Shown piece by piece: positions 17,681-18,777 of a stretch of DNA of 33,836 nt; position 1 is the stretch's first letter, and each line of letters starts with the position of its first letter. The stretch covers positions 1 through 33,836 of the forward strand of contig JAFDAJ010000033.1 in the NCBI GenBank assembly GCA_019313915.1, written 5' to 3'. This DNA is from Deltaproteobacteria bacterium (GTDB taxonomy: Bacteria > Myxococcota_A > Polyangia > Polyangiales > Houyiibacteriaceae). A model generated the notes under the pieces. That model saw nothing but the letters and a program-made list of their open reading frames with translations, ran no database searches and had not been told where the DNA came from. The translations under genes and the position numbers were made by a program.

Positions 17681-17782
17681 TTCCGAAAGAAACCGCCAGC
17701 GATCGCGGGGAATGCACACCGGGCTAGCGACGGGTTGCGAACGCCCCGTTCATCCCTTACACCCCCGCCTTAGGAGCAATTC

Positions 17783-17917
17783 ATGTACTTGAACATCGTC
17801 AACAGCGACCGGCCCCGCAAGCGCAACAAGGCCGCGCGCCGCAATGCCAAACGCAAGGCGAAGAACCGCCGTCGCGTCAATCGCATGCACGGGCGCAAGC
17901 TGGGCCGCCGCGGCTGA
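17783..17917 (+). CDS. 44-residue highly basic small protein
   Basis: The sequence from ATG 17783 to TGA 17915-17917 encodes 44 residues beginning MYLNIVNSDRPRKRNKAARR and continuing with alternating Lys/Arg/Asn (NAKRKAKNRRRVNRMHGRK). About half of all residues are Arg or Lys. AGGAG lies 6 bases before the ATG, an ideal ribosome site, which supports real translation. The start of the regulatory protein gene is only 11 bases after the stop, so the two may be co-transcribed. The composition suggests an RNA-, ribosome- or DNA-binding peptide. I do not recognise a named family; the function is unknown. Confidence 0.7.
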   Translation: MYLNIVNSDRPRKRNKAARRNAKRKAKNRRRVNRMHGRKLGRRG

Positions 17918-17928
17918 GCTCAGCCTCG

Positions 17929-18777
17929 ATGGATGCGAAGGTCATCTACGTCGTCAGCGACTCGACCGGCGAAACCGCCGAACGAGTAACCCGAGCCGCG
18001 CTCCTTCAGTTTCCCGATCGTAGTGTCCGGTTGAAGCTCGAGCGGCGTGTGCGAGACCACCGCGGACTGACCACCGTCCTGGAGAGCGCTGCCGTCCAAG
18101 GGGCAATGGTCGTGTTCACCTTGGTGCGTCCAGAGCTTCGCGACCACTTCAACGAAGAGGCGACGAAGCTTGGCGTTCGGCACGTGGACGTGATTGGCTC
18201 GCTGATCGGTCAGATCGGTCACTACCTCCAGGCCGATCCCGTGAACATCCCGACCGCTGAGATGCCATTGTCTCAGGAGTACTTTCGTCGAGTCGAAGCG
18301 ATCGAGTTTGCCGTCAAGAGCGACGACGGCAAAGAGCCGCGCAACCTTCACAAGGCCGACCTGGTTCTCGTGGGGGTGAGTCGCACGAGCAAGACGCCAC
18401 TGGCGACGTACTTGGCAGGCCGCGGCCTCAAGATTGCCAACGTGCCACTGGTGCTCGACGTCGATCCGCCGAATGAGCTGTATGAGCTTCCGGGTTACCG
18501 GGTCGTGGGCCTCACGGTCGACGTCGATCAACTGATCGACATCCGAAGACAGCGCCTCCAACAACTGGGGATGCCTCCCGATGCGAACTATGGTTTGCGC
18601 GACCACGTCAAGGCCGAGATCGAATACGCCCATGCGATGTACCGCGACAACCCGGAGTGGATGGTCGTCGACGTGACGAACTGCGCGATCGAAGAGACGG
18701 CGACGATCATCCTCGAGGCGCTGAAGGAGCGCGAGGAGCTCACGGGGCTGACTACCCCGCCGCCTCGCGTGCTCTAG
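17929..18777 (+). CDS. ppsR: PPDK/PEP synthase regulatory protein (bifunctional kinase/phosphorylase, DUF299)
   Basis: This 282-residue protein switches pyruvate phosphate dikinase or phosphoenolpyruvate synthase off by ADP-dependent threonine phosphorylation, and on again by Pi-dependent dephosphorylation. It opens with the family signature IYVVSDSTGETAERVTRAAL (residues 6-25) and has the P-loop-like LVGVSRTSKTPLATYLA (147-163). These are followed by ANVPLVLDVDPPNELYEL, GLTVDVDQLIDIRRQRL and the C-terminal helix region MVVDVTNCAIEETATIIL. Length fits the family. The target enzyme is not in the window. It starts 11 bases after the small basic protein gene. Confidence 0.93.
   Translation: MDAKVIYVVSDSTGETAERVTRAALLQFPDRSVRLKLERRVRDHRGLTTVLESAAVQGAMVVFTLVRPELRDHFNEEATKLGVRHVDVIGSLIGQIGHYLQADPVNIPTAEMPLSQEYFRRVEAIEFAVKSDDGKEPRNLHKADLVLVGVSRTSKTPLATYLAGRGLKIANVPLVLDVDPPNELYELPGYRVVGLTVDVDQLIDIRRQRLQQLGMPPDANYGLRDHVKAEIEYAHAMYRDNPEWMVVDVTNCAIEETATIILEALKEREELTGLTTPPPRVL

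Follow-up and report, generated by a model that had tools for sequence, protein, structure and literature searches.

A conserved 44-residue basic protein of Myxococcota, encoded ahead of a PPDK regulator gene, as a candidate accessory ribosomal protein

Tiny basic proteins restricted to particular lineages are known from ribosomes, bTHX and bL37 being two of them. Ribosomes of less studied bacteria, when imaged, still yield small proteins that had escaped annotation, according to a report on Borrelia (PMC10618245). It describes two ribosomal proteins, bS22 and bL38, that had no annotation there; bS22, with 61% Lys/Arg and unannotated before cryo-EM, lies in an rRNA pocket of h2, h27, h44 and h45, and is analogous to mS38 and eL41 (PMC10618245).

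We analyzed here a short reading frame encoding a very basic protein in a myxobacterial genome. The window, i.e. the whole stretch of DNA under study, comprises 33,836 nucleotides of contig JAFDAJ010000033.1. An earlier note, made from the sequence alone, had proposed that this frame is an unannotated gene.

A small gene under purifying selection

The features of the locus are:

17783 to 17917, + strand: gene for a 44-residue basic protein (open reading frame, purifying selection, family in order, class and phylum)
17772 to 17776, + strand: ribosome-binding site AGGAG, six bases 5' of the ATG (from the sequence)
17735 to 17763, + strand: promoter-like element TTGCGA-N17-TACACC (pattern common to 15/16 congeneric loci)
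17929 to 18777, + strand: PPDK regulatory protein gene (PF03618, E=1e-87)

The open reading frame 17783-17917 (+) translates as MYLNIVNSDRPRKRNKAARRNAKRKAKNRRRVNRMHGRKLGRRG, followed by a stop. Its position and its length of 44 residues are those given by the earlier note, as are the AGGAG six bases upstream, found at 17772-17776, and the PPDK regulatory protein gene 11 bases after the small-gene stop, whose ATG at 17929 opens a Kinase-PPPase protein (PF03618, PPDK regulatory family). The same note described the product as about half basic: it is indeed strongly basic, but 13 Arg and 6 Lys amount to 19/44 residues (43%), slightly under half. Upstream of the small gene, the window encodes a MaoC-like protein, and downstream, on the opposite strand, a cyclic-nucleotide-binding protein and a pantoate ligase.

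A frame or ribosome site left unconserved in relatives had been named as evidence against the gene, and both were found to be conserved. In a single-sequence search of 96 genomes, the frame was kept in 16/19 genus genomes, counting the one under study (E≤1.1e-16), and AGGAG stands just 5' of the start in 16/16 congeneric loci. The three genus genomes without a copy (G006, G009 and G011) are 82-90% complete. The overall tally of this search, 82/96 genomes, includes many chance basic stretches and was not used as a prevalence. Start, stop and ribosome site are all preserved across the 16 congeneric orthologs. Among these, pS is 0.437 and pN 0.054 (dN/dS around 0.085), and variable columns number 12, 7 and 38 at the first, second and third codon positions, respectively, of 43 each. 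Upstream DNA was long enough for 110 distinct coding sequences of the family; 4 or more contiguous nucleotides of AGGAGG are in place in 85 of them, versus 12.3% of 3,239 control ATGs taken from the same loci.

Openness of the frame is weak evidence for a gene here, because antisense frames are often stop-free too: among the 16 congeneric loci, a stop interrupts the three antisense frames of the stretch in 6, 3 and 16 cases, and the two remaining sense frames in 13 and 11. Such frequent openness is what a chance frame in GC-rich DNA has in its favor, but this explanation is extremely improbable, being contradicted by the dN/dS of 0.085, the codon-position pattern, the conserved ribosome site and the wide distribution of the family, and we discarded it. 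We conclude that 17783-17917 is a genuine gene, and that its protein is under purifying selection.

A structured RNA in place of a protein was also set aside, the Rfam scan having returned one match only, antisense and below threshold. This match, to gntR-DTE at window positions 17869-17993 (-), scores 24.6 bits for a cut-off of 63.6 and is probably due to chance. Nor was there any sign of a mobile element, BLAST returning no match to plasmids or phages; this is weak evidence, since the program masks low-complexity sequence.

Gene neighbourhood and the PPDK regulator

Upstream of the small gene, a promoter-like pattern, TTGC[GA]-N17..19-T[AGC]NA, is present at -46 to -49 in 15/16 congeneric loci (L016 lacks it). 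It was seen in 0/352 control stretches of 120 nt, a comparison that is indicative only, as the pattern was written after inspection of the alignment. A generic sigma-70 scan called no promoter at the 17735-17763 site. Among 72 other loci, 10 have the pattern, which correspond to seven distinct ones (L019, L027, L031, L034, L035, L049 and L084), L065 and L089 being refetched congeneric genes and L088 a repeat of L034. Upstream of rpmH, it was found at 0/11 recognized starts (starts were recognized in 11/23 loci, few of them from the order).

In all 16 congeneric loci, the PPDK regulator starts 9-13 nt past the stop of the small gene, on the same strand, and its start is preceded by at most 4 contiguous nucleotides of AGGAGG. 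The short gap, together with this weak ribosome site, suggests translational coupling in the genus. The two genes are likely on one transcript in this genus, of which the small gene would be the first, and the PPDK regulator, devoid of a strong ribosome site, may be translated by coupling to it.

Could the frame then be mainly a leader or coupling ORF controlling how the PPDK regulator is translated, the peptide itself being secondary? The arrangement seen in the genus would fit, and 24/42 order loci outside the genus also have the PPDK regulator downstream in the same orientation. However, the gap reaches up to about 200 nt in these order loci, selection acts on the residues themselves, and in the other 18/42 order loci the small protein is kept while no PPDK regulator is present within about 1.5 kb (neighbourhoods covered about 1.5 kb on each side of the small gene, less at contig ends). 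As the protein persists where the regulator is not its neighbour, the small gene is more than a leader of the PPDK regulator, and we regard a main role of this kind as unlikely. In one order locus, L031, the PPDK regulator is spread over two frames.

Other neighbours were recorded. A cyclic-nucleotide-binding or pantoate-ligase neighbour is found in five more order loci (L036, L039, L041, L043 and L049). Many order loci have upstream a Cys-rich protein, read as a lipoprotein, and the same protein occurs in L077, L081 and L085 of another order. In family f12, the small gene is at a location different from the PPDK-regulator context, often near proteins resembling the gliding-motility pair MglA/MglB (loci L053-L058 and related). 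Divergent relatives in the phylum have the same gene neighbours as other members of their lineage. In none of the neighbourhoods read did a ribosomal gene adjoin the small gene.

Distribution of the family

Proteins from 58 loci, chosen from the matches of the single-sequence search, start with M[YF][LIV] and have a core around RxxxRxxAKxKAKNRRR. Named records assign 28 near relatives to assemblies whose titles read Myxococcales, Deltaproteobacteria, Polyangia, Polyangiaceae, Sandaracinaceae or uncultured bacterium, SG8_38 included. Judging from these titles, the order is probably Polyangiales and the phylum Myxococcota. Profile A2 matched 43/144 class genomes at E≤0.01, 25 from the order and 18 from outside it; two of the latter, G139 and G149, gave short and weak matches. 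The other 101/144 class genomes gave no A2 match at this threshold, and no order genome is among the non-matches listed, which are apparently ordered with nearest kin first. Some order genomes, such as G050, were detected by A2 and A4 but not by profile A1.

With the combined profile A4, 113/235 phylum genomes matched at E≤0.01, a count that is not independent and is partly circular, since A4 was built in part from genomes it later found. Of these matches, 97 reach E≤1e-5 and sixteen are weaker. Weak matches from a separate phylum-level search are complete short ORFs of 39-46 aa, many of them with a ribosome site. A4 matched 36 members of the order, and again no order genome is among the non-matches listed. 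One match per genome was found in 112/113 matching genomes. The sole genome with two, G348, has them on contigs C114 and C455, and both are strong.

We compared the order-level (A1) and phylum-level (A3) alignments with hhalign. The score was about 50, versus averages of 9-11 for 100 column shuffles. A reversed A3 profile still scored 23-24 against A1, so that part of the likeness between A1 and A3 is composition. One shuffle in 100 (A3 versus A1) gave 139.7 and one in 40 (A3 versus bL34) gave 135.2, both taken as a program or parsing artefact. A conserved residue core, more than shared composition, thus appears to join order-level and phylum-level relatives. The profile searches thus find the family in every order member reported with A2 and A4 (25 and 36 genomes), in further orders of this class and, in divergent form, elsewhere in the phylum.

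The genes span only some 35-50 codons, which may explain why such a family would have been missed. The alignment, the ribosome site and the distribution are now known ahead of any structure, and a model of the family, at present absent from annotation pipelines, could be added to them.

Comparison with known families and possible role

The family is absent from the Pfam and NCBIfam libraries searched. The protein itself (P0001) has no match in either at E≤10, and alignment members gave only stray matches at E≥0.14, to DUF3293, Dodecin (two members), CD3324 and MreC (A2 members were scanned with NCBIfam only). PDB profile searches with A1 and A2 returned nothing credible. In the portions of open-licence papers that the literature search covered, neither a description of this family nor a myxobacterial ribosome structure was found.

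Small ribosomal proteins were compared one by one. For bS22 (COX24_C, PF08213), 0/34 members of A1 and 0/20 members of A3 match at E≤1. The PF08213 model itself matches 55/235 phylum genomes, 53 of them over the cut-off, and 41 of these 55 also carry the small family, at other places (match lists compared by hand). The lack of a PF08213 match and the coexistence of both kinds of genes in 41 phylum genomes set the small protein apart from bS22. Besides, bS22 is patchy within this one phylum, PF08213 being found in 0/38 order genomes.

For bL34 (PF00468), a PDB search with the phylum-level profile A3 retrieves bL34 chains at E=0.041. Profile scores versus bL34 in hhalign are 5.7-9.0, lower than or close to the means of shuffled controls (7.5-12.0), members have no Pfam match, and a true bL34 is present separately in 23/24 genomes tested. 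We thus rejected this identity.

bS21 is short, basic and helical, as the small protein is (helical by prediction). Identity with it was rejected as well: members have no Pfam match to PF01165, and bS21 is present separately in 37/38 order genomes. Identity with bTHX (TIGR04560) is not supported either, members of A2 and A3 being without NCBIfam match to this model at E≤1. The bTHX model reached its cut-off in 0/38 order genomes, a result of low power since just 1/14 control genomes reached it. No bL37 chain was among the PDB profile matches of A1, A2 and A3.

AlphaFold2, run on 24 sequences, predicts one basic helix at residues 10-35 with loose basic ends. Mean pLDDT is 95 for residues 21-30, and overall confidence is moderate (pLDDT 76.4, pTM 0.42). 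A lone predicted helix says little on function. The codon score of the gene, -0.013, is intermediate: scores as high are found for 47/174 background windows and for 55/59 ribosomal ones, the latter being flattered as they were scored with their own codon table. The Arg/Lys part of the score has p around 0.06 by simulation. High expression is therefore not supported by codon usage.

We estimate at about one in two the probability that the 44-residue protein is an undescribed accessory, rRNA-binding ribosomal protein. This reading is favoured by fixation in the order, by a copy number that is usually one per genome and by conservation of specific residues, and the predicted basic rod with basic tails would suit insertion into folded rRNA. 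Against it stand the absence of homology to any ribosomal family in the Pfam, NCBIfam, PDB and hhalign comparisons, the intermediate codon usage, the absence of ribosomal neighbours where neighbourhoods were read and the A2 non-match in most class genomes. More tentatively, and a little short of even odds, the relatives taken together may constitute an undescribed Myxococcota ribosomal protein family, distinct from bS21, bL34, bS22 and bTHX; it would be fixed in the order and divergent in many other families of the phylum.

A lesser but serious possibility is a conserved small protein acting outside the ribosome, which would use its basic helix to coat RNA or DNA; it might be a chaperone of RNA, a partner in RNA decay, or a protein of the nucleoid or the spore. 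Composition and the predicted single helix fit it equally, and the lack of ribosomal homology, the scattered gene contexts and a codon usage not clearly ribosomal-like all speak for it. In our judgement, the strongly conserved position-specific core and the short fixed length would suit a defined binding site better than general coating.

The likeness to small ribosomal or RNA-chaperone proteins put forward by the earlier note is thus borne out for composition, but not by homology to such a family nor by a clearly ribosomal-like codon usage. Its proposal of a real translation- or RNA-linked factor stands as regards the gene, real by selection and distribution; the link to translation is plausible, and the translation or RNA role itself stays an inference.

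As an accessory ribosomal protein, the small protein would insert its Arg/Lys helix and tails into an rRNA cleft, where they would neutralize phosphates, and the inserted helix could stabilize folded rRNA or a subunit contact, as bS22 does in other bacteria. Among the known proteins, bL34 is close to it in length and composition. The likeness to bS22 extends to more traits: as in the case described, the protein is tiny, very basic, helical (here by prediction) and easily missed by annotation, and its gene lies outside ribosomal operons.
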